Positions 5,000-29,591 of a DNA stretch of 30,518 nucleotides are shown here, piece by piece. Made by a program: the position numbers and the translations under genes. Below the pieces are notes generated by a model that was given only the letters and a program-made list of their open reading frames with translations, made no database searches and was not told the DNA's origin. Positions within the stretch are counted from its first letter, which is position 1. Each line of letters starts with the position of its first letter. The DNA is from a virus: positions 1 to 30,518 of IMG/VR virus record IMGVR_UViG_3300023180_000265, one strand, 5' to 3'.

Positions 5000-5005
5000 A
5001 CTAGA

Positions 5006-6064: not shown

Positions 6065-6073
6065 TGAAGTCAA

Positions 6074-6120: not shown

Positions 6121-6139
6121 ATTGTGTAAGGTGGTTGCC

Positions 6140-6423: not shown

Positions 6424-6425
6424 AA

Positions 6426-6668: not shown

Positions 6669-6692
6669 GATGAATCTCAAATAGGTGGAACA

Positions 6693-6836: not shown

Positions 6837-6860
6837 TTGTATCAATTGAATACAACTATA

Positions 6861-7583: not shown

Positions 7584-7601
7584 GGCAGTTGGGTGGACAG
7601 T

Positions 7602-7965: not shown

Positions 7966-7969
7966 GTGC

Positions 7970-8239: not shown

Positions 8240-8254
8240 AGTAGTAAAAGCAAA

Positions 8255-12530: not shown

Positions 12531-12531
12531 G

Positions 12532-13470
12532 TCACTCCTCCACAATAGTTAAGTTATCTAGGTTAGCACCTGCCAAACCATCATTTAAATTGTATTGTTG
12601 TACTTTTTCCCAAATTCTTTGTGTGACTGGAATACCACCATTCCTCAATCTTGACTTCATAGTGATAGCAGCAGCTTCAACACTACCATATATTGCTTCA
12701 CTGGCAAATTTACCAGTACCAGTAATAGATTTACTGAAGTGTTCTGGTACACTTAGATACTCAGTATTGCCATCTGGATCTAATTTGTGATAAGCAACAG
12801 GATCAATAGGCCATCTAAAATCAGCATCCCAAACAAGGTAGTCCAGAATATCATCAAAATCTTCTGGCGATCTAATATTATCCCTAAGATATGCTCTGTA
12901 GGTAGTCCAATTATCAACCTCTCCAGCATATGTTTCTTGAGCATCTGCCAACTGTGACCAATCACTCTTGTTTAATAAAAGTTCTTTAGTTTGCTTAATT
13001 TGCTCATCAATACCAACAATATATTCATTTGATGTAGCAAGATCAGCAATCTCTCTAGTTCTAATTACTTCTTGATCTAATTTATTAACTTCAATAGCTG
13101 CCTTAAGAACTTCAAATAGTTCTTTTACTTCATCTAGTTGAAGATTCTTATACTGATATCTAATCCATTTTGATTTCTTAGTAGCAAAATCAAATTTTTG
13201 CTTTTCTTTTTCTAGAATATATTCACCATCCTCATAAATGGCAAAATTAATAATTCGATCATTATCATTAGACCACTCGTCTGGACAATGTGTCAAAAGA
13301 TTGGAATTGACAGCAGGATCTAACTTAGCGGCAAAATACTCCCACTCTTTATTTTCTCCTCTTGTTCTGAGGACAATAAATCTAGCAAGAGCATTCCACT
13401 CCAGAATAGGTTTATGTTCCTCTGGAGGAGCAATAGATTCAAATTGAAAATCGTCTGGATTGAACGCCAT
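12532..13470 (-). CDS. Putative tail-fibre assembly chaperone-like protein
   Basis: The 312-aa protein has a central charged helical region (DEVKELFEVLKAAIEVNKLD) followed at about 164-200 by LLNKSDWSQLADAQET and NWTTYRAYLRDNIRSP. This pattern, 'LL..SDW..L.D' then 'W..YR..LRD', is the signature I know from phage tail assembly chaperone proteins of the PF16778 type. It lies directly after the giant fibre gene, the usual place for such chaperones. The first 150 and last 90 residues are unlike that short family, so this may be a larger variant or a structural protein carrying the motif. Confidence 0.6.
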   Translation of the reverse strand: MAFNPDDFQFESIAPPEEHKPILEWNALARFIVLRTRGENKEWEYFAAKLDPAVNSNLLTHCPDEWSNDNDRIINFAIYEDGEYILEKEKQKFDFATKKSKWIRYQYKNLQLDEVKELFEVLKAAIEVNKLDQEVIRTREIADLATSNEYIVGIDEQIKQTKELLLNKSDWSQLADAQETYAGEVDNWTTYRAYLRDNIRSPEDFDDILDYLVWDADFRWPIDPVAYHKLDPDGNTEYLSVPEHFSKSITGTGKFASEAIYGSVEAAAITMKSRLRNGGIPVTQRIWEKVQQYNLNDGLAGANLDNLTIVEE

Positions 13471-13494
13471 TTCTGTCAGAATTCTTTTTACTAT

Positions 13495-16400
13495 TTAGTA
13501 TGCCTTAATCAACCACTTGGTCCAAGTGTATGGAGACATCAATGCTACTTCATCTTGAGGTGTTAGTGATGGTGTTGGGATAAGTTGTTTTGTCTGTGAC
13601 AATGTAAATGTACCAGGAAGAACTTGAACACCAAGATCAGCAATGGAATTGAATTCCAGATTAACAGATTCAAGACCATGTGTGCTAGCATTTGTATTTA
13701 AACCAGCACTCTTGTTTCCATAAGTGTCATAGTTACCGTAACTATACATTTCTCCGTCATCATCAAATGGTGCTGATAGAGAAACATAATGAGTGTGGAA
13801 CAATTTACTCTCTGGATTATATCCTTTAATAGTAGCTTGTTTCTCTGGGATGTCAACACTAGTAAACTGTTTATAAGCACCAACAACACCATTAAAGTCA
13901 GATGATCCATTACCTGGCCAAGGAGAGTTAGTAACATCAATATAATTATTAATTTCTCCATAAGCACCAGAAGAAGAAATTGAGTTAATAGTTAAAGTAA
14001 TAGCAGATCCTCCAACATTACCAGCAGCAAGAGTTACTGTACCGCCACTAGTATAACCAGATCCACCTGAGTTAACAGTAACAGATACTACTTCTCCAAC
14101 ATTTCCTGAACTAGCAGGTCCAACAGCACTAACAGTAATTGTAATACTATTATCTGGTGCTGCAACTCCATTCGCGTCTACAATTTCATTACCATTTGCA
14201 TCTTCAACTGGAGGATCGCTACCATCAGCATTTTCAATGACATCGCCATTTGAATCTGTACCACCATTTGTACCACCATCATCAGCAAATGTTGTTCCAG
14301 GAATAGTGAGAGTATCACCAACATTATATCCAGATCCACCTGTAGTTGCTTGTACACTATATGTATTATTTGTATTGATAAGTACAGCGAACACAGCACC
14401 AGTTCCAGTCACATTAGCGCCAGGAGTAGCAGTAATGTCTTCATAAACAACTTGCTCGGTCACATCAGGAGCTACAGCATTACCAATGCTAAGATTTTGA
14501 ATATCTCCTCCAGTAGTTGCAGCAGTGGTTCCTCGTATTACAGTAAATGTTGCTCCCGATCCACCACCACCAGATGAAGCAACCTGGGAATATGTTCCAC
14601 CACTTGAGGTTGTGGATGAAGAAGTAACATCAACTCCTAAAATAGCTCCATCGACGGCAAGCATATTAGGTTGTACTAATTGAGGATTTGGTGACGGATT
14701 GCCAATGTCTGAAATACCTTGATAACCTGATGGATCTGACCAATCTTCTGTACTACCATCCCACCATTCTGTAGATTTACCAGGACAGTAAGCAGATCGT
14801 GGTAGATTATTGTCAGGAACGTAAACGTCGTTTCTAGTTAAATATCCCCACTGGTTAAAACCATATTGTCTTTCATATTCATATGTGGTACTCAATTTAC
14901 CAACAAATGTTTCACTAGCACTAGCAGCAGGAGATCTAAATCCACCATCACTACCCCAGTTAACACGACCTTTGAATGCTCCCTGGTCCTTCTGACCAGT
15001 AACTAGTTCATGGAAGTGTAGTGGAACATCATAAACTTTTTGTTTCTTAAGGCTTACTTGAGCTACACATGATCCAGATACCAAGAATTCCACGTTACCA
15101 CTGACATCAGTATAACCAGTGGTTTGTACCTGAGCAATACCAAAGTAATCAGATTCATTTGCTGGTAAACCTTCGGCAGGTGTTTGTACTTGTTCAAGTT
15201 CACCAGATCCAGGATCTCCAATGGTATCAACATACCACATACCACCAAATGCTCCAGGAGATTGATTACCAGGGGCACCAGCAAGTTTGGTTGGTTGATA
15301 TGTAGGTGCTAGTCCAGGAGATGATAATTGAGTACCATCAATAACACCAGTTCCCTTAAGATATCTGTTTCTAAGATCAGGTAATCTCATTAAGATCTTA
15401 GCATCACCATCTTCTTTAAGAATATTACCATTGACATCGTATAAAGTAGTGGTAAATGTTTCACCAGTTACTGCTTCTGCTCCGTATCTATATTGTAATA
15501 GAGCAAAGAGCATAGGATAATCTTCTGGTTCGACATAACTACCATCACAGTACAACATACCAGGGAATCTAGAAGTAAATTCGCCATCTAGGTCTCCCCA
15601 ATTATCAGATTGTGTAGCATCTTGGAATACAGGAATCATAGATCCAATAGGAAGACCATCAAACTTAGTATCAAAACGGATTTGACTTCCAGCATTAGCA
15701 CCAGCAACAAGATATTTTACTGGTTGAATAGAACTATACCACTGACTCTTAATTGGGTCCTGTACAGCAGCAGGAGTTTGTACAGTAAATGATGTCGTAT
15801 AGTTACCAATAGTAATAGATCCAGTTCTAGTGAATCCAGGAATTTCAGAAGATTCTAACTGTACTTGAATAGTATTACCATTATTTACTGTATACTCTCC
15901 ACTAGAAGGATTAAAAGTGCCGCCATTAATAGAAACTTTCAATCCATTTGTGGTGACAACTGGCGTAACTTGTCCCAATCCAGAAATAGAGGGAACTTCG
16001 ACTGAGTTAGTGTCAACACCAGCCCCACTTGCTAGAACTGTTTGGAAGGTAAATGCTGCTGGGTTGGATACAAATGATCCAGCAGTTGTTACTTTCCAGT
16101 CAGTTTCATATACTGGGTAATCGGTAGATCCTTCTACTTCTTGAGTTGTTGTATTATATGTGCCACCAGTTCTAGTGATAAACTCTCTAGGTTCTCCAAG
16201 TACACCAGTTGTAGTGTATTTCAATGAGATCTGATCATTATTCTCTACTTGAATATAAGTTAGTGGATCACCAGAAGAATTGAGTTGCTCGATACCATCA
16301 AGGAGAATAATGGCTAACGCTGGAGTTGATGAATCTGATTGATCATTATCACCATAATCTATTTGGAAATAAGTAGGACCGCCCAATCCTTCGATAACAT

Positions 16401-19400
16401 TGACATTACTTGTGTATGTTGTATTAGGGTTAGCGTTACTAACATCCAAGAAACTAAATGCTTCTGGTTCAGTATCAATTTCATCCAAGGTTGTAACCGT
16501 CCAAATATCTTCGGAATTAGATCCAGTACCAACTGTCACAACAACATCAACATCATCACTATAGTCAGCAGAAGATGTGACTCTAATTTGTAGTTTCTGA
16601 TTGTTCTCGATATAATTTGCTGTTGATCCAGATGTCCAATCTAAATCTACTGTGTTGTCAGAATTATAGATTTTAATTTCAGCTCCACCACTAGCAGTGA
16701 CTTCCACAGGAACATTAATACCACTAATAGTAACAACCTCACTAGTAGTTAAAGTGCTCAAAGGAGCATCTTCAGCATCTGTAAACTGGAAGAAATTTAC
16801 TGTAGTATCTGGTGGTGGACCAGTGTTAATAACCCACGTGGATGTTGTTTCACCAACTTCAACTTGTACTTCATATGGCGTATTATATGAAGTTCCAGTT
16901 GTTGCTCTTAATTGAAGATACTCGTTATTGCCAATTTGAGTAGCACCCCAATCACCACAAGAAGCATCACTATCAGCACTACAAACTCTAGCAGTAGCAG
17001 TAAATCCAGGAGAAGATAATTGAATTGGCACTTTACCTGTAATTCCTTGAATCAGTGCTCTACTAGAAACAACCTGAGTATTAATGTTAACACTATCTAC
17101 CTGATCAAAGTCAAAATCGTCTGGAGTAACATCCTGTGGTCCATATTCAATGATAACTCTACCAAATTGTCCAGGAGGGGCACCAAGACCGTCCAATGTA
17201 GTACCAGCAAGAATAACGGTGTTTGTACTATCATAATAAGCACCGCCACCAAGTCCACCCCTAGCATCTAAATCAGTAGTTTGAATAACATTGCCATCAG
17301 CATCTAATTTCTGGGTAAACAATGTTCCAGCAGTGCCATCATATCCACCACCACCACCGCCAGGACCAGCGCCTGAACCAGTAGCATCAGGAGCATCATC
17401 ACCACCCAAATTAATGTCAGTGGTTGTTGTTTGTAGAGAACCATAACCATCCCAGTTACCAAAAGCATCAGAACGTGGCACTTCAGTATCATTACCAGCA
17501 CCAGCGCCGCCACCACCACCGCCAGCCATAGCGATTAAAGTTCCATCTAACATTGTAATAGCGGCAGCACCGCCGCCGCCCCCACCAGCACCAGATTTAT
17601 CTCCATTACCAGAATCTCCGCCAGCGCCACCCATGGCATATCCCCATCCACCAGCACCACCGCCAGCTCCTTGAATATAACTTTGACCGTCTCCTCCTTT
17701 ATCAGGAGCATATACTCTAACTCTACCGTCAGTAACACCAGGGAATCCAGGTTGATCTGGAAAATCATCTCTCTGTACCCTTAATCTAAGGAAGTTACCA
17801 GAACCACCACCAGCACCTTGAGAGTTAGGAGCATCATCACCACCTCTACCACCACCAGCGCCAACTAGTGTTACATAAAAATCTTGTGTAGCGTAATATG
17901 GCAATTCTAATGTCTGATAAGTATTGGCACCATCACCATCTGCTTGTAAAAATCCAAAAAATCCTAGATTGTTAAAGAGTCGGGTGTAAATTCTGAACGT
18001 ATCATATGCCTCCTGACCATCTCTGTAAATTCTGTACGTTAATTCTTTCACTCCTCCACTATTAGTAGCGGCATTGGTTCTAACATATAACGTAGTATCA
18101 GTTGGTTGAATTGTAACACTATTAGACCAGTTTGATCCATTTGTACTCAAATCTCCTACACCATTATTAACGATTTCAGCATTTGTTTGTACGTCTAAAC
18201 CTTCGATAGCAACTTCAGCAATGTGCTCTTGATTAGGATTAGAAAGGAAAACAGGTTCAGCGTGGAAAGGATATGGAATAACTCTTCTAGATCTAGTAGT
18301 AAGAGTCATTGTAGTTTGTTTTTCTGCCTTAGAAGCAGGGGATGGACCCCCAGTTGGGTTACCTAAGTCAGGATTACCTGCTGTAGGACCAATAATCCTA
18401 ACTTTAGCAGTAGCCGTACCACCAAATGTACTATTTGAGTTAAGTTTTAAATTAATTGTATCGCCATTCTCAACAGTAATTTGAGATCCAGTCCATGCTC
18501 CAGTGTTATTTTTTCTAATTTCACCACCAGTTCCATCAATAATTGCCCTGATTTTTACGGATTGACCATCCAAATTTGCATTGATACTTTGTACAGAAGA
18601 CCCAGTATCATCAAGGATTGTATTCTGTAGATTAGTATAAGGAGATTCTAGGTCATCATAAGCACCGTCTGTATATTCTGTACCAAGACCTGACACTGGC
18701 ATGTCGGCAAAGTACATAAATCCAGGTTCACATGTGGCATCAACAGTTTTAGAGATTGTAATCTTTTCATACTCTAAAATTCTGATTTGAGCATTGCTAC
18801 CACCAGGAGAAATAATTGTGACTATATCACCAGCAACATAGTCATATCCTGGGTCTGAAATGAAAGCTGTAGTATATCCGTTTTCTTCACTAATTGTTGA
18901 AAATGAAGTGCCACTTGATCCACCAGGAAGAAGTTTAATCTTCATTCCCTCACCAGATCCATTAGTAGTGGTACTAAATGTACCAGTGTAGTTAAATCCA
19001 GAACCTGTTACTGCTACTCCGCCTACGCTAACAATTTCTGTCTTAATACCATATGTAAAGATGGGTGTTGCTGCAATAGCATCTGGATATCTATCTACTT
19101 CTGTCCAGATTTGCCAATTATCAGTTACGCTACCAAGAGTTTGTGATACAGCATAAGTACCAGATCCATATGTTGTACCATCATCTACGTTCTCATAAGA
19201 ATTACTACCTCTAGTGTATGTCTCACCACCTTGGGCAAATACTGTTATTGATCCGCTTTCTTTTTCTGTGTAGTTAGTGCCATTAGGCATTCTAACAAAT
19301 ACATCATCACCAAGAACAACGCCTGTTAAAGATGTAGAATATCCACTAGTAGGAGCAGCAGCATTTCCACCACCCTCTACCTTGACTACTCTTGCTACAC

Positions 19401-20193
19401 CAGTAGTTGATACTCTTAGTACAGCATCGTCATCAATGTTAGTAATATCAACACGATGATAATAATATTGAGGTCCACCTTCACTGTATGGAACCATGTC
19501 AACACGATCAGTGAAGTTAATTTCACTAGCAGGAATCGATTGATCCTGTGGTCTAGTGGAAATATCCCACGTTCCTGTTAAGATAGCAGAAGATGATACA
19601 CCAGCAGCAGTATATTCAGAACCAAGACCGCCACCAGTTGTGGTTTCATTTACACTAAATGTAACTCTAGTCCAAGTAATATACCAATCAGGAGTAGTTA
19701 CCCTTAACTGAATTTTATCTCCTGGTTGAATGCCGCCTGTACCTTCAGCAAGATTACCACTAATAGTAGTTCTCCAAGAGTCAAAAGATCCATCTCTAAA
19801 GATTCTAAACTCTGCTGTTGTATTAGACGTATTGCTATTCTTAGGACCGTTAGATACAGCAGAAATAGCACCGTCAATGGGGACTTCAAACCCCGACATC
19901 TCGATTAAATTGGAATAATATGTAGTGTCTCTTTCAAAAGTTGTTCTACCACCAGTTAAGGTATTATTGCTATTGCCATCATAAGCATTTAAATATCCTT
20001 GCTGATCGGTAAAAGTAAATCCAGCTGGCGTAGCATCAGGAATTTTTGTACCAAAAGTAATACCATCAGGATCCTGTCCCGTACCAATACGAAGATTTAC
20101 AGTAACCTGCGTATTCCATGTATCTGGTGTTGGATATCTTACCTGTACGTTATCCCCAGGACTAACGTACACAGGATTGCTACTATATGGCAT
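13495..20193 (-). CDS. Giant multidomain tail-fibre/adhesin protein with tail-collar domain
   Basis: At 2232 aa this is the largest gene in the window. From the N-terminus it has beta repeats with IxPGDKIQLRVTT-type motifs (1-650), then a glycine-rich block (about 770-1018) with runs of up to six or more glycines. At least four Ig/Fn-like repeats of 100-140 aa (about 1020-1500) follow, each beginning with an F-x-F strand and ending in a W-x-V-x-T-like strand. A phage tail-collar segment starts near 1540 (GMLYCDGSYVEPEDYPMLFA, then MRLPDLRNRYLKGTG). Near 1960-2060 are GYxxGDTLTI repeats, and the C-terminus ends WLIKAY, like the IRAY end of the 642-aa protein. It is probably a host-recognition fibre or tail-sheath appendage of the virion. 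Confidence 0.85.
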   Translation of the reverse strand: MPYSSNPVYVSPGDNVQVRYPTPDTWNTQVTVNLRIGTGQDPDGITFGTKIPDATPAGFTFTDQQGYLNAYDGNSNNTLTGGRTTFERDTTYYSNLIEMSGFEVPIDGAISAVSNGPKNSNTSNTTAEFRIFRDGSFDSWRTTISGNLAEGTGGIQPGDKIQLRVTTPDWYITWTRVTFSVNETTTGGGLGSEYTAAGVSSSAILTGTWDISTRPQDQSIPASEINFTDRVDMVPYSEGGPQYYYHRVDITNIDDDAVLRVSTTGVARVVKVEGGGNAAAPTSGYSTSLTGVVLGDDVFVRMPNGTNYTEKESGSITVFAQGGETYTRGSNSYENVDDGTTYGSGTYAVSQTLGSVTDNWQIWTEVDRYPDAIAATPIFTYGIKTEIVSVGGVAVTGSGFNYTGTFSTTTNGSGEGMKIKLLPGGSSGTSFSTISEENGYTTAFISDPGYDYVAGDIVTIISPGGSNAQIRILEYEKITISKTVDATCEPGFMYFADMPVSGLGTEYTDGAYDDLESPYTNLQNTILDDTGSSVQSINANLDGQSVKIRAIIDGTGGEIRKNNTGAWTGSQITVENGDTINLKLNSNSTFGGTATAKVRIIGPTAGNPDLGNPTGGPSPASKAEKQTTMTLTTRSRRVIPYPFHAEPVFLSNPNQEHIAEVAIEGLDVQTNAEIVNNGVGDLSTNGSNWSNSVTIQPTDTTLYVRTNAATNSGGVKELTYRIYRDGQEAYDTFRIYTRLFNNLGFFGFLQADGDGANTYQTLELPYYATQDFYVTLVGAGGGRGGDDAPNSQGAGGGSGNFLRLRVQRDDFPDQPGFPGVTDGRVRVYAPDKGGDGQSYIQGAGGGAGGWGYAMGGAGGDSGNGDKSGAGGGGGGAAAITMLDGTLIAMAGGGGGGAGAGNDTEVPRSDAFGNWDGYGSLQTTTTDINLGGDDAPDATGSGAGPGGGGGGYDGTAGTLFTQKLDADGNVIQTTDLDARGGLGGGAYYDSTNTVILAGTTLDGLGAPPGQFGRVIIEYGPQDVTPDDFDFDQVDSVNINTQVVSSRALIQGITGKVPIQLSSPGFTATARVCSADSDASCGDWGATQIGNNEYLQLRATTGTSYNTPYEVQVEVGETTSTWVINTGPPPDTTVNFFQFTDAEDAPLSTLTTSEVVTISGINVPVEVTASGGAEIKIYNSDNTVDLDWTSGSTANYIENNQKLQIRVTSSADYSDDVDVVVTVGTGSNSEDIWTVTTLDEIDTEPEAFSFLDVSNANPNTTYTSNVNVIEGLGGPTYFQIDYGDNDQSDSSTPALAIILLDGIEQLNSSGDPLTYIQVENNDQISLKYTTTGVLGEPREFITRTGGTYNTTTQEVEGSTDYPVYETDWKVTTAGSFVSNPAAFTFQTVLASGAGVDTNSVEVPSISGLGQVTPVVTTNGLKVSINGGTFNPSSGEYTVNNGNTIQVQLESSEIPGFTRTGSITIGNYTTSFTVQTPAAVQDPIKSQWYSSIQPVKYLVAGANAGSQIRFDTKFDGLPIGSMIPVFQDATQSDNWGDLDGEFTSRFPGMLYCDGSYVEPEDYPMLFALLQYRYGAEAVTGETFTTTLYDVNGNILKEDGDAKILMRLPDLRNRYLKGTGVIDGTQLSSPGLAPTYQPTKLAGAPGNQSPGAFGGMWYVDTIGDPGSGELEQVQTPAEGLPANESDYFGIAQVQTTGYTDVSGNVEFLVSGSCVAQVSLKKQKVYDVPLHFHELVTGQKDQGAFKGRVNWGSDGGFRSPAASASETFVGKLSTTYEYERQYGFNQWGYLTRNDVYVPDNNLPRSAYCPGKSTEWWDGSTEDWSDPSGYQGISDIGNPSPNPQLVQPNMLAVDGAILGVDVTSSSTTSSGGTYSQVASSGGGGSGATFTVIRGTTAATTGGDIQNLSIGNAVAPDVTEQVVYEDITATPGANVTGTGAVFAVLINTNNTYSVQATTGGSGYNVGDTLTIPGTTFADDGGTNGGTDSNGDVIENADGSDPPVEDANGNEIVDANGVAAPDNSITITVSAVGPASSGNVGEVVSVTVNSGGSGYTSGGTVTLAAGNVGGSAITLTINSISSSGAYGEINNYIDVTNSPWPGNGSSDFNGVVGAYKQFTSVDIPEKQATIKGYNPESKLFHTHYVSLSAPFDDDGEMYSYGNYDTYGNKSAGLNTNASTHGLESVNLEFNSIADLGVQVLPGTFTLSQTKQLIPTPSLTPQDEVALMSPYTWTKWLIKAY

Positions 20194-20203: not shown

Positions 20204-20392
20204 TCAGGTATTATCCTCAGATTTATTTAGGTCACTAGGTCTAACGTTTACCCATGGACCGCCATTGATCCTAACTTGAATCGGTTTATCTGCCGTAATT
20301 TCTTGTCGTTCTGTAATGTCAGGAGTAAATCTACCAGATTTATACATATCATCTGGTTCCATGTCGTATAAAATAGGAAATACTTCGCTCAT
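20204..20392 (-). CDS. 62-aa protein resembling the paralogues' C-terminal end
   Basis: The sequence begins MSEVFPILYDMEPDDMYKSG and then has KPIQVRINGGPWVNVRPSD. The last part matches the ending shared by the four modular paralogues (VQIKINNGSWQNI). It looks like an orphan copy of only that C-terminal motif, or a protein meant to occupy the same site. It overlaps the upstream gene by ATGA and precedes the giant fibre gene. A CTAAATA stretch at 20224-20230 lies inside it, 31 bases before the fibre ATG. Confidence 0.7.
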   Translation of the reverse strand: MSEVFPILYDMEPDDMYKSGRFTPDITERQEITADKPIQVRINGGPWVNVRPSDLNKSEDNT

Positions 20393-20601
20393 AACGTACC
20401 AAAATATGTGTTAGCAATAAGTTGTACAATCTCATCTTCACCAGAGAGATCATCACCTGGGTTGATATATCTATCAATTCCTTCTACGTTGACAACTTCG
20501 TCATTGTAAGTAGTTGTAAACTCTTCAAGCACACCAATCTGCTGTGACTTTACAAGCACGAAAATTCTCCATAATCCAGTTTTTACTCTTCTACTTGCCA
20601 T
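20389..20601 (-). CDS. Small hypothetical protein in the fibre cluster, 70 aa
   Basis: Begins MASRRVKTGLWRIFVLVKSQ and has EEFTTTYNDEVVNVEGIDRY, ending IVQLIANTYFGTL. The ATG at 20601 is one base after the stop of the 412-aa paralogue, so I reject the frame's extension to 20634. A GATAAATA late-promoter-like motif lies 34 bases upstream. Function unknown; its position suggests a structural or assembly role. Confidence 0.7.
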   Translation of the reverse strand: MASRRVKTGLWRIFVLVKSQQIGVLEEFTTTYNDEVVNVEGIDRYINPGDDLSGEDEIVQLIANTYFGTL

Positions 20602-20602
20602 G

Positions 20603-21841
20603 TTAAATTTCTCTAATGTTTTGCCAACTACCATTATTTATCTTGATCTGTAAATTTGGATCATCACCCTTAATCTCCATATCAATTTCAATATCATCCA
20701 TGTTTAGAGTTTGTGACAATCCATACTGACTCGGAGTATTAGAAATCAAATCAATATCTTCAAAAGGATAAGTTCCTACTGCTCCATCATAATCAAAATC
20801 CTCACTTATCCTAGGTTTTCTGGTAACATAAGAAACATTAAAAGCACTCAAACCACCAACAGTAACACTAACTGTTTTAGTATTTGTTTTACCAAAATCT
20901 CCAGTTACACCACTAATATTAGTATTAAATGGTAATGTTGTCATTTTCATGTAAACATTTTGACCATTACTAAAATACTGTGGGTTAGCATAGGATCCAT
21001 TAGCACCATTAGCAAAGAAGACACCAGATGTAGGACATGACACTTTTGTTATCATATCAATGCCAGACAAAGTTCCTAGTTTTTTAGCGTATGATGTATT
21101 TGGTTCTAAATTAGTAAATGATGTAGTCCAAGAATTAGAAGGATTTCTATCGTTGTATACATCAACTGTAATTGAATCAGTAACTGTGTTACCAGCTACG
21201 TTAGTAGCAGTTATTGTGTATGTTCTACTTGCTCCATTACCACTAGATTGTGGTAAATTATTAATTGGTAGACTACCATTAGGTAAAGACAAAGCTACAC
21301 CATTCCAGATATCACCACTACCACCATCAGTTGTTAAAATAGCAGTCGTGGCATTAGTAATATTCCAACTTAATGTAGTGTTATAATTCGGAATGCCATC
21401 AGTACCACTAGTTTGAATTTCAGGACTAGCGGTAAAACTAGTAATTACAGCTGGTGGTGGCGGAACGAATCCAGTCCAATCTAATGCTATACCCCATGGA
21501 CCACTACCACTATTAACTGAAGTGGCGCTTAGTGTATAAGTTCCTGGAGGAATATAACTACTAGTAGTTTTAGAAGTTTGACCACCATAACCACCCATAA
21601 CAAACTGACTTCCATATCCACTAATAGATACAGATCCCGAGTCATCTACGGCAGTGTCGAATGTTTGTCTGCCATAATTATTAAAAGTAATAGTCCAACT
21701 AAAAGTTCTAGTTGGTGTACCACTGTCACTACCACCAATATTATTGTTATTCATGAATGATGACCACCCACCATTACTATTGGTTCCTGTGTAACCTTGG
21801 TCGTTTGGCGATCTGCTAGTAAATGAAGAATCTTGTGTCAT
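20603..21841 (-). CDS. Modular adhesin paralogue D (PA14-like N-terminus), 412 aa
   Basis: Residues 1-125 form a Gly/Ser/Asn-rich beta domain. AVDDSGSVSISGYG and PGTYTLSATSVNSG resemble PA14 or other jelly-roll carbohydrate-binding domains. A PPPP linker (127-130) leads to an Ig-like domain (131-229) with the shared SGTDGIPNYNTTLSW segment. Residues 230-412 are the C-terminal module shared with three neighbours, with NGQNVYMKMTT, the acidic repeat EDIDLISNTP, MDDIEIDMEI and the end QIKINNGSWQNIREI. This layout suits a virion surface protein with a variable tip and a fixed attachment base. No enzymatic motif is seen. Confidence 0.78.
   Translation of the reverse strand: MTQDSSFTSRSPNDQGYTGTNSNGGWSSFMNNNNIGGSDSGTPTRTFSWTITFNNYGRQTFDTAVDDSGSVSISGYGSQFVMGGYGGQTSKTTSSYIPPGTYTLSATSVNSGSGPWGIALDWTGFVPPPPAVITSFTASPEIQTSGTDGIPNYNTTLSWNITNATTAILTTDGGSGDIWNGVALSLPNGSLPINNLPQSSGNGASRTYTITATNVAGNTVTDSITVDVYNDRNPSNSWTTSFTNLEPNTSYAKKLGTLSGIDMITKVSCPTSGVFFANGANGSYANPQYFSNGQNVYMKMTTLPFNTNISGVTGDFGKTNTKTVSVTVGGLSAFNVSYVTRKPRISEDFDYDGAVGTYPFEDIDLISNTPSQYGLSQTLNMDDIEIDMEIKGDDPNLQIKINNGSWQNIREI
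20635..20642 (-). promoter_or_regulatory. Late-promoter-like GATAAATA
   Basis: The 8-base motif matches the T4-type late consensus (xATAAATA). It is embedded in the codons for K-I-N-N at the end of paralogue D, 34 bases before the ATG of the small gene at 20601. The same motif occurs at the same place in paralogue B. Confidence 0.4.
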
Positions 21842-23530
21842 TTATATCTCTTGAATATTTTGCCATCCACCATTATTAATTTTAATTTGTACGTTTGGAT
21901 CATCAGACCTAATTTCCATATCAATTTCAATATCATCCATTTCTATAGTTTGTGTCACAAGAGATGATGCTGGGGTATTAGTAATTAGGTCTATATCTTC
22001 ATAAGGATACTCAGCTGGTTGTCCATCGTAATCAAACGTTTCTTTGATAACTGGAGCTCTAGTAACAAAATTAACAGCGATAGTATCAGTTCCAATCACA
22101 ACATCCATAGTTTTAGTGTTTGTTTTGCCGTATGTAGCATCACTAGACAATTCAGATATGTCAGTGTTGTATGGTAAAGTTGTTGTTTTTAAATAAATGT
22201 TTTGACCATTGGTAAAGTATTGTGGATTGGAATAAGATCCATTCTCACCATTAGCAAAGAAAACTGCATCGTCTTCACACGAAACTTCAATAACCATATC
22301 AACACCAGCAATTTTACCTATGTTTTTCGAGTATACTGTTTCTTTTTCTAAATTGCTAAATGTGGTAGTCCAATTCGTGGTTGAAGGATCTTCATCATTA
22401 GTAACTTCTACAATCAAAGTTTCAGTTACACTTTCAGATCCAGCATATGCCGTTACAGTGTATGTAACTGTGGCAGGAGAATCACTACCTGTCACAGATT
22501 GTGGCAGATTATTATCAGTATACGATAGGGTATCGCCAGGATAGTAAGTTTGATTTATACCATTACCTGTAAGAACAGCATATTGCCAGTTTTGAAGAGT
22601 AAGATCTATAGTTGTATTGTAATTTGGTACTCCATCTAATCCACTAGTTTGTGGATTAGGACTTGCGCTAATTTCTACTTCAGGGACAAGTAAATCGTAA
22701 GATACAACAATACTTGGAGTATTGCCTAGAGAAGAAGAAGATAAAGATACTAGTTGTGTGTTGTATTTTGATCCAGCAGAATTATTGTAACTATTGCCAG
22801 GAGCACCACCACCTCCTCCACCAGTTCCACCAGACTGACCACCATTTCCACCATTACTACCAGAGCTACCAGAAAAATTTCCATTAACAGAAGTCCAATC
22901 AGCGGCAGCTGCTCCAGTACCCTGAGATCTAGCACCTCCGCCTCCACCACCAGAAATAGCAACATAGGCACCAGCAGTGGTATCATAAACAGCACTAGAT
23001 GATCCACCACCGCCACCACCACCGCTATTTACATAAATTGTGTTGTAGCAAGTTTTTGGTTCATAACAGCAAAAACATTCATTTGCTGTTCCTTGTGCTC
23101 CACCACAACAGGGATCCCCATTCCCCTGACTACCACCACAATACCAGTTACTACAACATCCACAACTGCCACCACAATCTCTAGCATATCCTTTACCTTG
23201 ATCACAGTTATATGCTTGCTGATATGACCATTGCCCAGGTCCACCATTTCCTCCGTCATGTGGACCATCTCCACCAGATCCACCACCATATACACCACCA
23301 TTACCACCATTATCACCAGGAGCTAGAATTAAAGATCTAGCAGTGAAATTGTAAGAAGAAAGATATTGGAATGTACCATTTCTACCATTACCACCAGCTC
23401 TACTAGATCCACCCCCATAACCCTGTCCACCTCTAGCACCATTAACGGTAATGGTTAGATTGACATGATTATCTGGAATGTCAACGTTTTGAGCAGATGT
23501 ATATGTATTTGATACAGGAGTTGATGACAT
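21842..23530 (-). CDS. Modular adhesin paralogue C (polyglycine/cysteine-rich), 562 aa
   Basis: Residues 30-250 are dominated by glycine, with several runs of six to seven G, a composition typical of polyglycine-II helical bundles in phage adhesins such as S16 gp38 and in receptor-tyrosine-kinase glycine-rich domains. Between about 109 and 161 are 12 cysteines (including GSCGCC, DPCC and ECFCC), which is unusual for a phage virion protein. An Ig-like domain (285-377) with SGLDGVPNYNTT follows, then the shared C-terminal module (378-562) ending NNGGWQNIQEI. The gene directly abuts paralogue D. Probably a receptor-binding protein. Confidence 0.78.
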   Translation of the reverse strand: MSSTPVSNTYTSAQNVDIPDNHVNLTITVNGARGGQGYGGGSSRAGGNGRNGTFQYLSSYNFTARSLILAPGDNGGNGGVYGGGSGGDGPHDGGNGGPGQWSYQQAYNCDQGKGYARDCGGSCGCCSNWYCGGSQGNGDPCCGGAQGTANECFCCYEPKTCYNTIYVNSGGGGGGGSSSAVYDTTAGAYVAISGGGGGGARSQGTGAAAADWTSVNGNFSGSSGSNGGNGGQSGGTGGGGGGAPGNSYNNSAGSKYNTQLVSLSSSSLGNTPSIVVSYDLLVPEVEISASPNPQTSGLDGVPNYNTTIDLTLQNWQYAVLTGNGINQTYYPGDTLSYTDNNLPQSVTGSDSPATVTYTVTAYAGSESVTETLIVEVTNDEDPSTTNWTTTFSNLEKETVYSKNIGKIAGVDMVIEVSCEDDAVFFANGENGSYSNPQYFTNGQNIYLKTTTLPYNTDISELSSDATYGKTNTKTMDVVIGTDTIAVNFVTRAPVIKETFDYDGQPAEYPYEDIDLITNTPASSLVTQTIEMDDIEIDMEIRSDDPNVQIKINNGGWQNIQEI

Positions 23531-23534
23531 CTTT

Positions 23535-23711
23535 TCACCACTTGTTTAGAGGGCAATGTAATCCAGGTACAAGGACTTTAGCAGGAAGAAAACAATTACA
23601 TTGCTTACATGTTTTAATCGCTCTATTCATCTCCTCACATTGTAAGCAGATTTTCATTTTTTCTTTTGCTTCTTGTTTAACTACTTCTAAAGATCTTGAA
23701 AATTCAGGCAT
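23535..23711 (-). CDS. Small zinc-ribbon-like protein, 58 aa
   Basis: It begins MPEFSRSLEVVKQEAKEKMK and contains CLQCEEMNRAIKTCKQCNC and later HCPLNKW. The CxxC ... CxxCxC ... C layout could bind one or more zinc ions. Short proteins of this type (DUF6171-like) are known in T4-like cyanophages, with unknown role. The ATG at 23711 overlaps the upstream stop by 8 bases. It precedes paralogue C by four bases. Confidence 0.78.
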   Translation of the reverse strand: MPEFSRSLEVVKQEAKEKMKICLQCEEMNRAIKTCKQCNCFLPAKVLVPGLHCPLNKW

Positions 23712-24021
23712 TATTTTCTCCCATCTCCGCTTCAAGTTCTGCTAATGCTTCTTCGTAAATGTCAGAAACCAGTTGGGGATCTACAGTATAATTATTTTCA
23801 AGACCATTATCAAAGTCCTTGATAACACTATATGGTGTCATCTGATATTTCTCAGTGACATATCTTACTTGTTCGAATAATTTATCTAATAACCGTCTGT
23901 CTTTTCTAACCTCAGCAAAAAACAAAGCATATAAAACGGTTTGAGATGATGATGCCACCATCAATTTTCTAAAATCTTCTCTAATTTCATCTTGAGAAAA
24001 TCCAATATATTTTTCGTCCAT
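23704..24021 (-). CDS. Hypothetical helical protein in the fibre cluster, 105 aa
   Basis: Begins MDEKYIGFSQDEIREDFRKL. It is mainly helical and charged, with LLDKLFEQVRYVTEKYQMTP and an acidic end ALAELEAEMGENNA. The ATG at 24021 lies four bases after the stop of paralogue B, so I reject the extension to 24057. A GATAAATA motif lies 37 bases upstream. Function unknown; perhaps an assembly factor for the neighbouring virion proteins. Confidence 0.72.
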   Translation of the reverse strand: MDEKYIGFSQDEIREDFRKLMVASSSQTVLYALFFAEVRKDRRLLDKLFEQVRYVTEKYQMTPYSVIKDFDNGLENNYTVDPQLVSDIYEEALAELEAEMGENNA

Positions 24022-24025
24022 AATT

Positions 24026-25171
24026 TTATATCTCTTGGATATTTCGCCAACTACCATTATTTATCTTGATTTGTACATTTGGATCATCAGTTTCAATAGG
24101 CATATCAATTTCAATGTCATCCATGTTTAGGGTTTGTGTTAATCCATATTCAGTCGGAGTATTAGAAATCAAATCAATATCTTCAAAAGGATATTGTCCT
24201 GCGGATCCGTCATAGTCAAACGTTTCTTTGATGACTGGGGCTCTAGTAGTATACGAGACATTGAAAGAAGATAGTCCTCCAACACTAACAGAAAATGTTT
24301 TAGTATTCGTTTTTCCACTAGTAGCAGAAGAAGATAATCCACTAGTATTTGTGTTAAAAGGCAACGAAGTTGTCCTTACATAAACAGATTGACCATTAGT
24401 AAAATACTTTGGATTAGCAAAACCACCACCAGAACTATTAGAGAAAAATACACCATTAGAAGAACTTTCAACTTTAATTGTCATATCAATTCCAGATAAT
24501 GTGCCCAACCTTCTAGTGTATTGAGTACTTGGTTCTAATCCAGTGAAAGATGTGGTCCAACTATTAGAAGGAGTTCTATCATTATATACAGTAACTGTAA
24601 TTGTCTCACTAACAGCTGGGCGATCAGGATTATTTGCTGTTAGTGTGTATGACCTAGTTGCTCCACTACCAGTAGATTGAGGGAGATTAGTAATATTACG
24701 AGATGTTGTACCCAATACATTCCACGACTCACCAGCACTGCTGGTTAAAGTTAATGAAGTAGCATTTTGATATCCCCATGATAATCTAGTGTTATAATTT
24801 GGAATGCCATCAGTACCACTAGTTTGTGGGTTAGGAGAAGCAGAAAACCCACTAATTACAGGAGGATCATAGTAAACATACAATCCATTACTACGAAATT
24901 CCGCATTACCAGAAGTAATTGTTACAATGAGATCATTATAATCATTATCAGCACCAGCACCTTGTCTATCGTCAAGACCAATTTGTGTGCTACTATTAAT
25001 TCTATAACCGACAGATCCTGGTCCACTACCCTGGGTAGAATAACCATTAGTACTGCCAGCAGGTTTATCTACAAAAGAAGTTCCAGTATTAGGACCTACA
25101 CAACTACCAGAAAAACATAAGTAGTTTTGATCTCCAGCATCTCTAAATGTATTAAATGTTACGGTAGGCAT
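24026..25171 (-). CDS. Modular adhesin paralogue B (DUF4114-like N-terminus), 381 aa
   Basis: The N-terminal 103 residues contain LDDRQGAGADNDYNDLIVT (66-84), matching the 'GGDNDYND' core of DUF4114, a domain often found in secreted and calcium-binding proteins; two cysteines are also present (FSGSC). Residues 104-197 are the Ig-like domain with SGTDGIPNYNTRLSW. Residues 198-381 are the shared C-terminal module, ending NNGSWRNIQEI. The ATG touches the stop of paralogue A. It is probably a surface protein whose N-terminus binds the host or stabilises the tip. Confidence 0.78.
   Translation of the reverse strand: MPTVTFNTFRDAGDQNYLCFSGSCVGPNTGTSFVDKPAGSTNGYSTQGSGPGSVGYRINSSTQIGLDDRQGAGADNDYNDLIVTITSGNAEFRSNGLYVYYDPPVISGFSASPNPQTSGTDGIPNYNTRLSWGYQNATSLTLTSSAGESWNVLGTTSRNITNLPQSTGSGATRSYTLTANNPDRPAVSETITVTVYNDRTPSNSWTTSFTGLEPSTQYTRRLGTLSGIDMTIKVESSSNGVFFSNSSGGGFANPKYFTNGQSVYVRTTSLPFNTNTSGLSSSATSGKTNTKTFSVSVGGLSSFNVSYTTRAPVIKETFDYDGSAGQYPFEDIDLISNTPTEYGLTQTLNMDDIEIDMPIETDDPNVQIKINNGSWRNIQEI
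24058..24065 (-). promoter_or_regulatory. Late-promoter-like GATAAATA
   Basis: The same motif as at 20635-20642, again within the K-I-N-N codons near the end of paralogue B and 37 bases before the ATG at 24021. It suits a T4-type late promoter for the two small genes and the next paralogue pair. Confidence 0.4.
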
Positions 25172-26749
25172 TTAAATCTCCTGAATACTTTGCCATGGTT
25201 CGTTGTTTATCTTAATTTCAACGTTTGGATCATCAGTTCTTATCTCAACGTCAACATCAATATCATCCATATTTAGAGTTTGAGTTACAGCATATTCACT
25301 AGGAGTATTAGTAATTAAATCAATATCTTCATAAGGATATTCACCAGACGCCCCATCAAAATTAAATGTTTCTCCAATGTTAGGTGGTCTAGTAGTAAAA
25401 GTAACATCAAATGGGTCTAGGGATCCAACCGTAATACTAACTGTTTTGGGATTTGGTTTTCCGAATAAATCATTTGCCCCCAAACCACTAAGATCGGGAT
25501 TAAATCGTAATGTTATCATTTTAATATAAACGTTTTGACCATTAGTAAAATACTGTGGATTAGCGTAAGATCCATTAGCACCATTAGCAAAAAAGACACC
25601 TGATGTAGGGCATGATACTTTAGTTACCATGTCAATGCCAGATAAAGTCCCAAGATTTTTAGCATATTCAGTATTTGGATCCAACCCAGTAAATTCCGTA
25701 GTCCAGGTATTAGATGGTGTATTATCATTAGTAACCTCTACAGTTACTGTTTCGGTAGAACATCCCAACGAGTGACACAACGTCAATGTATATGTTCTAC
25801 TAGCTCCACCACTACCAGCTACAGATTGAGGTAAATTAGTTACCTCAAAAGATCCACTAGTACTTGGATTTGGAACAGAAGCAGAATAAGTACCAGAACT
25901 GATTGTGGCACTGGTAATAGTTAGATCAGATGACGCCGACCAACTCAATGTAGTGTTATAATTTGGAATTCCATCTGTGCCGCTAGTTTGTGGATTAGGA
26001 GAAGCAGTAAAAGAAGAAATATTAGGTAGATCTACAACTGTTAAAGTAACACTATCACCTGAATCTCCAGCAGGACCTTCGGCAGTAATATCGTATGTTG
26101 TGGTATTTTGTGGATTAACTGTGACACTACCAGAAAGACCAGGATTTGTGACACCAGTAACAGATATATTAGGTAGTCCATCAGCATTTTCTGAAATATC
26201 ACCAGCAGATGTCCAAGAGAGTGTTGCTCCACTACCATTTCTTAAAATAGTTGATGGAGATACACTAATAGAAGTGTTTGGTGGAACAGATACATTATGT
26301 GGAGCAATCCAGCGTTCGTTACCAAAAGTGGTATTAACAACTAAGACAAATCCAGCAGCATTACAATCAGAAATAAACTGGTTATAAGAATCTTGGACAT
26401 CAGCCAAAACAGTAGAACCAGAAGTATCAACTGCTAATGATACGACACTTCCTTCTTCTGCTTGATCTAATCCAGTAATAGTAAACCAATCAGAAGTTGG
26501 TGGAACTGTTGACGTTCCATATTTACTATCTAATCTACTAACAGTAATAGGACCAAAAGTAAGAGGATCACTATTCCACGCACTAGGAAGACCTAATTGA
26601 CTGGTATATGATGGTTGTGGATTTAATAACCAAAATTCTCTATTTGGATATGTACTTCTAAAAGTATTAAAGTCAGAATTTCTATTATTAAGATGAGTGG
26701 AAGTATCCGCTTCGTCAACTACAGATATACAAACTACTTTTGCTGCCAT
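25172..26749 (-). CDS. Modular adhesin paralogue A (VWA-like N-terminus), 525 aa
   Basis: The first 150 residues contain SLAVDTSGSTVLADVQDSYN (104-123), a DxSxS metal-ion-dependent adhesion site as in von Willebrand factor A domains, followed by a helix and FVLVVNTTFGNERW. The fold is shorter than a typical VWA domain (about 180 aa), so this is tentative. Two Ig-like domains follow (about 155-240 and 241-345), the second with SGTDGIPNYNTTLSW, then the shared C-terminal module (346-525) ending NNEPWQSIQEI. It may bind a host surface ligand through a metal. Confidence 0.77.
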   Translation of the reverse strand: MAAKVVCISVVDEADTSTHLNNRNSDFNTFRSTYPNREFWLLNPQPSYTSQLGLPSAWNSDPLTFGPITVSRLDSKYGTSTVPPTSDWFTITGLDQAEEGSVVSLAVDTSGSTVLADVQDSYNQFISDCNAAGFVLVVNTTFGNERWIAPHNVSVPPNTSISVSPSTILRNGSGATLSWTSAGDISENADGLPNISVTGVTNPGLSGSVTVNPQNTTTYDITAEGPAGDSGDSVTLTVVDLPNISSFTASPNPQTSGTDGIPNYNTTLSWSASSDLTITSATISSGTYSASVPNPSTSGSFEVTNLPQSVAGSGGASRTYTLTLCHSLGCSTETVTVEVTNDNTPSNTWTTEFTGLDPNTEYAKNLGTLSGIDMVTKVSCPTSGVFFANGANGSYANPQYFTNGQNVYIKMITLRFNPDLSGLGANDLFGKPNPKTVSITVGSLDPFDVTFTTRPPNIGETFNFDGASGEYPYEDIDLITNTPSEYAVTQTLNMDDIDVDVEIRTDDPNVEIKINNEPWQSIQEI

Positions 26750-26750: not shown

Positions 26751-27662
26751 TCAGAACTTGATAATGTATTCTACTAAAATGTATGGAGGAGTTGCTTCAT
26801 CCAACTTGTAAATATTTTCTGTGGTGATAGTAACCGTAGTTTCTAGTCCTAAAGGATCAATTTCAATTTCACCAGTAGCAGGTTCTAACAACTGATAAGT
26901 CATTTCATTAGCAGCAGCAATATCAGCACTACTAGGAAATTGAACTTGGTGTGAGTGGGCAACAACAGCAGATGATCCTGTTGGTTGTTGAACCTGAACT
27001 AGATTATTAGATCCCTCGTTTTGAGCATCGTTACCACCTAAAGCAGCACCGTCATTACTAACAAAGATAGAATCCGACCAGTTTCCCAAATAACTAAAAA
27101 CACCAATTGTAGCATCATGTCCATGTGCCTGGAATGCTTGATCGCTAAGGAAAGCATTCAATGTATTTCCATCAGAAGAAATAGTTTTAAACTGAGGATT
27201 ACCAATGAAACTTTTTGCTGTAAAAGGAACCAGCTCAAAAGTACCGCCGTATGTAATTGTTTGTGTACTACCAACCAAAGATGAGATCTCAACCTCAGAA
27301 CCTACTCTATATCCCTGAGTAGAATCTGTATTTTCGATCTTGGAATTCAAGAATGTACCAGAAGAAGCAGATCCAGAAATATACTTAGATCCTAAATCAG
27401 GTAACGCAAACTCATTGGATGATAGTTCTTGTCCCTCTTTTTGGAATTTACAATTATCTCCTGTCCCTAGAATTTCTGCTAGAACAGGATACTCGGAAGC
27501 ACTAAGTACAGAACCATCACATCTTAAAAATCCTGCTGGTAAATATGCTCTCCAATTACCAGCGTCAGGAGTATTTCCTGCTGGTAATTGTTGTGGAAAA
27601 GGAATGATAGTACCAGCGACACCACCAAACCTAGCTTTTTCGTTAACGTAGTAGCGTGCCAT
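26751..27662 (-). CDS. Phage tail-collar protein, 303 aa
   Basis: The N-terminal part has the tail-collar pattern: GTIIPFPQQL, then AGFLRCDGSVLSASEYPVLA and FALPDLGSKYISG. The middle carries QAHGHDA and AHSHQVQF, His motifs often seen near collar domains. The end is TPPYILVEYIIKF. It follows the 642-aa collar protein and precedes paralogue A by one base. Such proteins sit in tail fibres or short baseplate fibres and bind host receptors. The first 30 residues (MARYYVNEKARFGGVAGTI) are probably the virion attachment end. Confidence 0.85.
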   Translation of the reverse strand: MARYYVNEKARFGGVAGTIIPFPQQLPAGNTPDAGNWRAYLPAGFLRCDGSVLSASEYPVLAEILGTGDNCKFQKEGQELSSNEFALPDLGSKYISGSASSGTFLNSKIENTDSTQGYRVGSEVEISSLVGSTQTITYGGTFELVPFTAKSFIGNPQFKTISSDGNTLNAFLSDQAFQAHGHDATIGVFSYLGNWSDSIFVSNDGAALGGNDAQNEGSNNLVQVQQPTGSSAVVAHSHQVQFPSSADIAAANEMTYQLLEPATGEIEIDPLGLETTVTITTENIYKLDEATPPYILVEYIIKF

Positions 27663-29591
27663 TTAATAAGCCCTGATGAGATTGGTCATTGTGAGTGATG
27701 CCACTCTAGTAGTAAATCTGATTTGTAAAGCATTAGGAATATTGTCTGGAGTAACTAGAGGTTGTGCTTTTACCTGTATTTGTTCAGATACATCGAGATT
27801 AGTTCCATCATATTGAACAGAAAATGTTCCATCATGATCGTGAGATTCAATAACATCAACACTTCCAAAACTATTTGAGGCAGTATCATTCAAAAAGTCG
27901 GTAGCAGCATGATTAAATAACACTGGAAATGGTCCATGATCTACTGCACCAGCATCATTATTATCAATTACTTTCAAGACATTTGCTGTAGCAACTGCTT
28001 GAGAAGAATCGGAGAAAGGAACAGTAAATCCAGGATGAAATTCACCTTCTTGCTTCAACCACGCCAATTTTTGACCAGCATCTCCAGTTTTACTGGCAGT
28101 TTTGCCAACAGATGTATTGTTAGCAGCATCTCTTAAATTCTTAACACCAACGCTAGCACCAGCATCAAACCAAGATTTTCCAACACCGTGACCAGCTTGT
28201 GCTGTACCAGCAGGAATATATCCTTTTAAAGGTAATCCACCACCAACAATAGCGATGGCATATCTACCAGGACCAGCAGTAAATGGAGATGTTTGCATGT
28301 TAGTAATTTGGGTTTTATTACTTCCAATATAAACACCTGGGTTAGCACTACAAAATAGTTCTAAAGGAACATTAATTGGGCATCCAATACCAAAAGGTTG
28401 TTCTGGTGGACATGGATTACGTCTAGAAGCAAAGTCGGCAAATGTAAAGTCAGGAGTAGCAAATACACAAGCACCGTTTCCTGGTCGATCGTTAGCATCA
28501 TTATAATTAAGAGTATCGTACAATCCCTCGTGGAAGTGCTGTGCCATGTGATATCTTCCTAGTTTCCTAGGCATAACATACACATCCTTAATACCAAATC
28601 CTTTAATAATACTTTGTCCAGTAATAGTACCCTCGAAATAAGAATCTCCAATCTGATTGATAGTAATTGTTAAATCATTTGTCGTCGCTACACCACCATC
28701 AGTACTAAAAACATCACCTTCAATTATTAATCGATCTCCAATTTCATAACCTTCTCCTTTCTGTTTTGTTGCTACAGAATACGTACCATCGGTATTAATT
28801 ACCACCAAGAAAGCAGCGCCCGTTCCAGAACTAGTATCTCCAGAATTTATATTAGTACTAGGTTGAACATCATCACCAGAAACTGTATAAACCTTAGCTG
28901 TGTCTACATCGGGAGCAGTTCCAGTGGAAGAAACTGCTACAATAGTACCGTTAGGATCTGGAACATATTCTAAACTAATATCAGTTAAAGCATTTTGTAC
29001 GTTTGGAGGACCCAAATCTCCTGGTTCAAATCCACCAATAGAATCACCAATATAATCCTTAACAATATTCAAAGCAGCTGGATTATCAATCGGAGACGGA
29101 ACAGCGCCAGCAACAATGGTCTCTGCTTTTAAATTTACAGTAGTAGAATTAGCTTGAGTTCCTGATGTATGAGTGGGAGCAGTTGTTCCTAATGTGCCAG
29201 AAGCAGCTGTTGCGGAAATAAGTTGAACCAAATAATACTTACCACTAGAGACAATAATATCTCCATCATAAACTGTAGCACCAGCACTCCAAGCATCAAC
29301 ATTGCTACCAGAATATAGTCCAAAATATCCTGTAGAAATATCGGCAGCTGCCTTATCATTCATTGGGGGTAAACGGAACGTTCCTGTGTAATTTGGAAAT
29401 GTTCCTTGAAAACTTGTTCCACCATAAGTGTCTCTAAGTACACGTGCTAAAAGTGGATAATCGCCAGCATTTAGTTCTTGATTATTACACAACAACCATC
29501 CTGCTGGAATGTCCGATAGGTCTCCTCCCCATGGTTGCATTGAACCAATAGGGAGGGCTCTTTGTGTTTTTGTTACAGCGTATCCTGGCAT
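27663..29591 (-). CDS. Tail-collar fibre protein with CBM-like segment, 642 aa
   Basis: A collar domain occupies about residues 10-90: LPIGSMQPWGGDLSDIPAGW, LLCNNQELNAGDYPLLARVL, FRLPPMND. At about 94-150 is DAWSAGATVYDGDIIVSSGK with APTHTSGTQ, which resembles carbohydrate-binding module 5/12. A GYEIGDRLIIEGD-type repeat and MAQHFHEGLYD follow, then a long region with no named domain. The C-terminus has IESHDHDGTFSVQYDG and ends LIRAY, like the giant fibre's LIKAY. It is likely a host-recognition fibre acting with the 303-aa collar protein directly downstream. Confidence 0.82.
   Translation of the reverse strand: MPGYAVTKTQRALPIGSMQPWGGDLSDIPAGWLLCNNQELNAGDYPLLARVLRDTYGGTSFQGTFPNYTGTFRLPPMNDKAAADISTGYFGLYSGSNVDAWSAGATVYDGDIIVSSGKYYLVQLISATAASGTLGTTAPTHTSGTQANSTTVNLKAETIVAGAVPSPIDNPAALNIVKDYIGDSIGGFEPGDLGPPNVQNALTDISLEYVPDPNGTIVAVSSTGTAPDVDTAKVYTVSGDDVQPSTNINSGDTSSGTGAAFLVVINTDGTYSVATKQKGEGYEIGDRLIIEGDVFSTDGGVATTNDLTITINQIGDSYFEGTITGQSIIKGFGIKDVYVMPRKLGRYHMAQHFHEGLYDTLNYNDANDRPGNGACVFATPDFTFADFASRRNPCPPEQPFGIGCPINVPLELFCSANPGVYIGSNKTQITNMQTSPFTAGPGRYAIAIVGGGLPLKGYIPAGTAQAGHGVGKSWFDAGASVGVKNLRDAANNTSVGKTASKTGDAGQKLAWLKQEGEFHPGFTVPFSDSSQAVATANVLKVIDNNDAGAVDHGPFPVLFNHAATDFLNDTASNSFGSVDVIESHDHDGTFSVQYDGTNLDVSEQIQVKAQPLVTPDNIPNALQIRFTTRVASLTMTNLIRAY

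Follow-up and report, generated by a model that had tools for sequence, protein, structure and literature searches.

The window analysed here is a 30.5-kb viral fragment (positions 1 to 30,518 of IMG/VR record IMGVR_UViG_3300023180_000265) of a T4-like marine cyanophage whose relatives are the Synechococcus and Prochlorococcus myoviruses of the Kyanoviridae. At 20204-26749 it carries an array of four putative adhesin genes (A to D, with several small genes) whose products share a C-terminal base and differ entirely in their N-terminal tips, and in related phages tips are exchanged while the base is kept. The array is probably a modular set of receptor-binding proteins, each unit made of a tip, a spacer of immunoglobulin (Ig)-like domains and a lineage-specific C-terminal docking module, with the tips passing between units. 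An earlier note on this DNA had proposed tip exchange, and the proposal is supported by N-terminal domains swapped onto conserved bases between close relatives (including one tail crossover, in relative L012, resolved to the base) and by an order and content of N-terminal domains that differ among related phages instead of being conserved throughout.

All four open reading frames (ORFs) listed in that note were found, on the minus strand. Adhesin A (525 aa, 25172-26749) has a VWA-like tip at residues 1-150 (assigned from domain hidden Markov models (HMMs), a DxSGS motif and a structural model), Ig-like domains at 151-240 and 241-342, the penultimate Ig-like domain Ig2 at 343-455, and a terminal tail at 452-525. 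Adhesin B (381 aa, 24026-25171) joins a DUF4114-like tip (1-100) to an Ig-like domain, Ig2 and a tail (308-381), and adhesin C (562 aa, 21842-23530) has the same series behind a glycine/cysteine-rich tip (1-283), its tail at 489-562. Adhesin D (412 aa, 20603-21841) consists of a PA14-like tip (1-128, from HMMs and a model), an Ig-like domain (128-232), Ig2 (232-342) and a tail (339-412). Pairwise BLASTP gives a single common match per pair, over the C-terminal 278-298 aa, with E from 1e-90 to 1e-123 and identities of 62% for A-D, 56% for A-B, 54% for A-C, 64% for B-D, 54% for B-C and 52% for C-D. This stretch holds an Ig-like domain with the segment SG(T/L)DG(I/V)PNYNT, a second Ig-like domain and the terminal tail of about 75 aa; the shared module described in the note is real, but it is about 280 aa long, not only 180. 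The first 130 residues of the four proteins show 19-26% global identity, which is the level of random pairs, so that the tips are as unrelated as had been claimed. The genes do abut within A/B and C/D, each TAA being followed directly by an ATG, but the "back-to-back" orientation ascribed to these pairs is wrong, as all four genes run head-to-tail on one strand. Nor is the pairing fixed: L012, a 90% relative, lacks D.

The same architecture recurs across a set of 54 genomes and 137 array proteins (after dereplication), assembled from viral contigs collected with a collar-protein alignment, plus isolates, and annotated with iterated profile HMMs seeded on the window. The unit defined by these HMMs is a tip, one or more Ig-like domains, the penultimate Ig-like domain and a terminal tail of 75-86 aa. 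Nearly every array protein of the cultured phages examined has the tail at its C-terminus, and in a second sample, 80 viral contigs retrieved by the VWA-like tip, 65 of the 66 complete proteins end in it. Where the VWA-like tip starts beyond residue 200, a tail precedes the tip, and such proteins look like fusions of two or more units; the 1861-aa ACG-2014j g2 (L010:13490-19075), for example, reads PA14...tail-VWA...tail. Giant fused adhesins with internal tail domains are frequent (ACG-2014j g2, L128, L155 and others).

Within genomes (128 pairs), median identity rises from 29% over the first 130 aa, which is background, to 50% over the last 180 aa and 61% over the last 75; between genomes the corresponding medians are 29%, 31% and 33%. 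In 397 of 464 cross-genome pairs with homologous tips (tips at least 45% identical over 100 aa or more), identity is higher between the tips than between the bases. (This stricter count replaces an earlier, looser one of 2923 tip-homologous pairs, probably inflated by low-complexity glycine segments.) The nearest neighbour of a base is a paralogue from its own genome in 35 of 131 cases, against a mean of 1.9 and a maximum of 8 in 200 label shuffles, while the nearest neighbour of a tip is an own-genome paralogue in only 2 of 131. The tips of ACG-2014e g2 and of g2 in the IMG/VR contig L042 are 94% identical on bases 31% identical (collar 37%), and those of S-CAM4 g1 and S-RIM44 g2 are 89% identical on bases at 39% (collar 47%). 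The order of N-terminal domains is VWA-DUF4114-polyG-PA14 in the window, polyG-PA14-DUF4114 in L042 and VWA-PA14-other in S-RIM44, and the VWA unit comes last in the H9-2 and RIM32 arrays. The pairs in this survey are not independent of phylogeny, and individual exchange events are therefore given more weight.

Two S-RIM44 isolates with flanks 97.7-98.5% identical differ in g2: one type (KX349294/NC_047734) has a 486-aa product with a PA14 tip, the other (KX349295) an 884-aa product lacking that tip; near-identity returns only in the last ~165 bp of the gene, a sharp boundary inside the tail. (Syn1, 99.8% identical to the second haplotype, the one with the 884-aa g2, was used in this boundary comparison.) S-CAM4 and ACG-2014j, with 94% identical flanks, have g2 products of 582 and 1861 aa and are co-linear only in the last ~200 bp. 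In L012, about 90% identical to the window and without D, the C gene is C-like as far as the codons for LNMDDIEIDM, roughly 110 bp from the stop, is D-like from there on, and continues into the gene located after D in the window; the L012 B tail has D-like sequence in the LNMDDIEIDM area as well. The third genes of L038 and L042 (collar 90% identical) carry a PA14 and a DUF4114 tip, respectively, the base and downstream region being 89% identical. L016 g1 combines the tip of L057 g3 (79%) with the base of L057 g1 (70%), and this tip has therefore changed position, while L063 and L110 differ by one whole gene. Gene A of L013 departs from window A only by a 21-bp indel, a handful of point differences and a diverged patch of ~135 bp in the C-terminal module, within which L013 resembles L012. 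The patch lies at 25410-25551 of the window (gene A nt 1199-1340), where identity between the window and L013 drops to ~80%; the search for a donor of nt 1204-1337 gave none, the best paralogue being D at 78%.

Synonymous divergence between the window and L012 is likewise a mosaic, at 0.43 for the collar gene and 0.44 for the A tip, and about 0.07 for the A Ig domains and 0.05 for the polyG tip of C (Fisher tests: flanking genes versus C tip, p 3e-16; A tip versus A Ig domains, p 1.5e-7). The ratio of nonsynonymous to synonymous divergence (dN/dS) is not elevated at the tips, with 0.22-0.32 there versus 0.24-0.35 in the C-terminal modules, and the evidence is therefore for exchange, not for selection on point mutations. 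Plain duplication and divergence, under which the N-termini diverged or were acquired long ago and no longer exchange, agrees with the orthologous A, B and C keeping the same tips and order in the window and L012; it is refuted, and retains next to no credibility, in the face of the within-species replacement in S-RIM44, the loss or gain of D with a hybrid tail between 90% relatives, tips 89-94% identical on bases 31-39% identical, and the mosaic of synonymous divergence.

The repeated DNA that the note suspected of supporting recombination is present as direct tail repeats beside adjacent cassettes. A direct-repeat search finds four 292-nt and four 274-nt copies in the window array, at 63-80% identity; the 292-nt repeat D1 is tail-coding DNA on the minus strand, with one copy in D at 20602-20893 and others at 21841-22132, 24025-24316 and 25171-25462. 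Between paralogous array genes of one genome, DNA identity peaks in the last 240 bp (median 71-72%), with values as high as 88% over the last 120 bp; the first 150 bp stay at the background of 62.5%. With the units arranged head-to-tail, each comes after its predecessor's tail, and the downstream cassettes thus have tail-coding repeats on both sides. Recombination in the tail repeats, and elsewhere in the C-terminal module and Ig region, between paralogues or co-infecting phages is probably the pathway behind the observed exchanges, and would delete, add or replace tips with the base preserved. No inverted repeats of 28 nt or more, such as a site-specific inversion system would have around its exchangeable segments, occur within 20204-26749; no reverse transcriptase was seen among the larger ORFs scanned in the window, itself a 30-kb fragment. 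Most likely the C-terminal tail, with the last Ig domain, would dock each protein onto the phage tail or baseplate or onto neighbouring fibre proteins, the N-terminal tip facing and contacting the host. Several tips would be carried at once, and the gain or loss of one would change which surface features can be bound.

The names given to the tips are not equally secure. PA14 is supported through relatives, two of ten aligned homologues of tip D matching Pfam PF07691 (best E 3.6e-7) and window protein D itself giving no match. DUF4114 stays below threshold, with tip B at 20.3 bits to PF13448 (E 0.0011) against a gathering cut-off of 27 bits; the same tip is 48% identical over 88 residues to S-CAM1. 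The VWA label comes from motif and model: tip A has the DxSxS motif of a metal ion-dependent adhesion site, with D108, S110, G111 and S112 invariant in 10 aligned homologues, and is modelled as alternating beta/alpha elements, but has no Pfam match at E<=0.1. A Pfam scan of the four adhesins returned nothing above cut-off. A PDB sequence search with the D alignment gave no match (nothing among solved chains at E<=1), and the two matches obtained with the VWA alignment, at E 0.7, were judged meaningless. AlphaFold monomer models of A and D have confident Ig domains; fold searches with them returned generic Ig/FN3 proteins, such Ig domains filling the results for A, so that the tips were barely tested.

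The array has a phrog_4714 collar gene on one side and a phrog_4924 short-tail-fibre gene on the other, an arrangement that matches cultured Kyanoviridae isolates, and the array and the neighbouring genes of interest are all on the minus strand. In the order of transcription, the end of a large short-tail-fibre protein (phrog_4527) is followed by collar-domain proteins of 642 aa (27663-29591, from Pfam/PHROGs profile scans) and 303 aa (26751-27662; PF07484 E 9.4e-9, phrog_4714 E 4e-61), then A, B, two small genes, C, D, two more small genes, a 2232-aa protein and a tail-assembly chaperone (phrog_4697). The 303-aa collar gene opens the locus and is a conserved synteny anchor, found at the same place in isolates. 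The 2232-aa short-tail-fibre-like protein (13495-20193; phrog_4924 E 4e-92), which closes it, contains by HMM Ig2 repeats, a Gly-rich segment and a collar domain. Its Ig2 repeats are related to the penultimate domain of the adhesins, it shares a segment of ~75 aa with the 642-aa collar protein at 44% identity, and its L012 homologue (12190-18198) lacks about 235 aa (residues ~1842-2076). Among the genes downstream, at 1873-12080, are those for a D12-class adenine methyltransferase, a DEAD/ResIII helicase and two 2OG-Fe(II) oxygenases. The whole window has 0 matches to TATAAATA, the core of the T4 late promoter, versus 2.3 expected, and megablast of the array region against phage records gave no match.

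The small genes within the array are also on the minus strand. The one after B encodes about 105 aa (23704-24021; listed as 117 aa from an upstream ATG), and beside it lies a gene for a CxxC...CxxC protein of about 58 aa (23535-23711; listed as 66 aa; phrog_13558). These two form a travelling pair among adhesin genes (window 23535-24021, L061:12510-13656, L048:9353-9878), and L061 has two such pairs in a row. The gene after D, for about 70 aa (20389-20601; listed as 81 aa), is conserved in this clade. The 117- and 81-aa ORFs probably owe their 32-bp overlaps to the calling of the first possible start; ATGs just past the stops give about 105 and 70 aa.

A 62-aa ORF (20204-20392, minus strand), identified by the tail HMM and BLASTP, closes the array; it is a copy of the tail motif EITADKPIQVRINGGPWVNVR that stands alone. 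In 25 metagenomic arrays of the window clade a homologue has the same closing position (e.g. L034:15325-15513), and another occurs in Sf-FR1; among the other cultured phages, none has an annotated stand-alone tail gene in the interval from array to short-tail-fibre gene. The ORF contains little beyond the tail motif and in the window clade sits just before the short-tail-fibre-like protein of ~2000 aa; its product may be a free docking tag. A bolder and only tentative extension is that the lineage-specific C-terminal docking tag, also made free at ~60 aa, lets unrelated binding domains plug in as cassettes for receptor switching throughout the family, while in its free form it would occupy or regulate docking sites left empty.

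That the array proteins are adhesins acting in host attachment is likely from their domains, gene neighbourhood and the literature. Synteny with collar and short-tail-fibre genes points to a virion or attachment role, and the records of isolates annotate "virion structural protein", annotations from which the virion location would follow. Since unrelated tips cannot be a common attachment, we infer that the C-terminus is the anchor and the tip faces outward. Several observations weigh against this account. The anchoring role of the C-terminus is reached by exclusion, and the tail is poorly modelled in both monomers (predicted local distance difference test, pLDDT, about 35-71), which would fit a tail that folds only once it is part of an oligomer or complex, and equally a region that is badly predicted. 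In PHROGs the related large proteins have the category "head and packaging" instead of tail; the first cassette has the collar gene, not a tail, upstream; and not every loss has a clean tail junction (L038/L044, considered as another clean tail-to-tail deletion, was ambiguous on re-check). During chemostat coexistence with the host, S-PM2d acquired mutations in S-PM2d218, 219, 220 and 224, and the text names none in the array genes S-PM2d221-223 (PMC9910659). By record, the mutated fibre genes flank the array on both sides, and the pattern fits a role of the locus in adsorption together with an array that changes by cassette and not by point mutation.

The same observations bear on other explanations. 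It is unlikely, if worth weighing, that the conserved tail is a folding or trimerisation chaperone, possibly removed after assembly, with tips still exchanged and attachment made through the Ig domains or other proteins. The tail's place at the very end of 65 of the 66 complete VWA proteins, its poor structure in the monomer models, as for an oligomerisation module, and the existence of a stand-alone tail protein would all suit such a role; but the tail is kept inside fused proteins, which would be needless for a terminal cleaved chaperone, the unrelated tips could not supply a common attachment, and tail sequence follows phage lineage, as expected for docking to lineage-specific partners. The C-terminal domain of T4 Hoc binds the capsid, and a Hoc-like head decoration, with Ig-domain fibres fixed to the capsid by the C-terminus and N-terminal tips outward, would have the polarity of the window proteins (C-terminal anchor, Ig spacers) and would explain the head-and-packaging label of related PHROGs and weak structural matches to outer capsid proteins. 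We consider it improbable, since tail collar, short-tail-fibre and tail-assembly-chaperone genes stand around the locus and no solved chain matches the profile; as a sequence relative of the C-terminal module, T4 Hoc is rejected by hhalign (probability 0.1 on a scale of 0-100), although the two may still be alike in structure. More improbable again is a different role for these variable proteins of the virion, for instance the binding of glycans or matrix away from the host cell, or the control of superinfection. Both PA14 and Ig-like domains are binding folds of a generic kind and the function of the array is deduced, yet the array stands in a run of tail-fibre genes, isolates annotate its members as virion proteins, and the published view takes the tail-fibre regions of these phages as a host recognition cluster (PMC7029224).

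Receptor-binding proteins exchanged by cassette would matter because the proteins for host choice among Synechococcus and Prochlorococcus in T4-like cyanophages are largely unassigned, and the array offers concrete candidates for them across the family, built on a unit that can be defined. (According to a review, T4 tail-fibre genes, g34, g35 and g37 among them, cannot be recognised in cyanomyoviruses (PMC2984593).) The S-RIM44 haplotypes are a natural pair, in which the tip cassette of one gene differs and neighbouring regions are about 98% identical, and assignment of host range is testable with them. A constant C-terminal tail behind a variable N-terminal tip can serve as an annotation rule for many "virion structural proteins" in marine viromes. 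The reading in which a free tag accompanies plug-in cassettes would, if true, describe a general receptor-switching mechanism across the family.

No description of the constant-tail, variable-tip unit was found in the literature searched, which took in few subscription papers. Marine T4-like cyano- and pelagimyophages have a hypervariable tail-fibre region termed the host recognition cluster (PMC7029224); in the available portion of that account it is described as an island, and the unit structure, the constant tail and the cassette exchange belong to the present analysis. The Kyanoviridae "virion structural proteins" (T4-GC 737-739 of S-PM2 and Syn1; phrog_29022 and phrog_2155) have the same synteny from collar to short tail fibre, match the window tips over segments and carry the tail HMM at their C-termini. 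The window differs from them in its four short single-tip units, its different penultimate Ig domain and its stand-alone tail ORF, and several isolates, unlike the window, have fused multi-tip giants of 1200-1860 aa. T4 Hoc resembles the window proteins in Ig-like domains and polarity, but the window array stands in a tail-fibre and not a head neighbourhood. The multi-fibre adsorption complex of RaK2 (Alcyoneusvirus) can be likened to the array, by its description, for the many receptor-binding proteins in one complex (PMC10253068), although RaK2 has depolymerase spikes, unlike the window array. The nearest functional analogue is the branched tail-spike complex of the Ackermannviridae (TSP1-4), also tandem receptor-binding proteins with a constant assembly part and a variable binding part, in which the addition of a fifth spike led to homologous recombination between neighbouring spike genes (PMC11414711). 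In those spikes the constant XD/TD part forms the N-terminal side and the variable part the C-terminal side, whereas in the window the C-termini are conserved and the tips mutually unrelated. It would appear that the array is a variant of the known multi-receptor-binding-protein arrays, with its polarity reversed.

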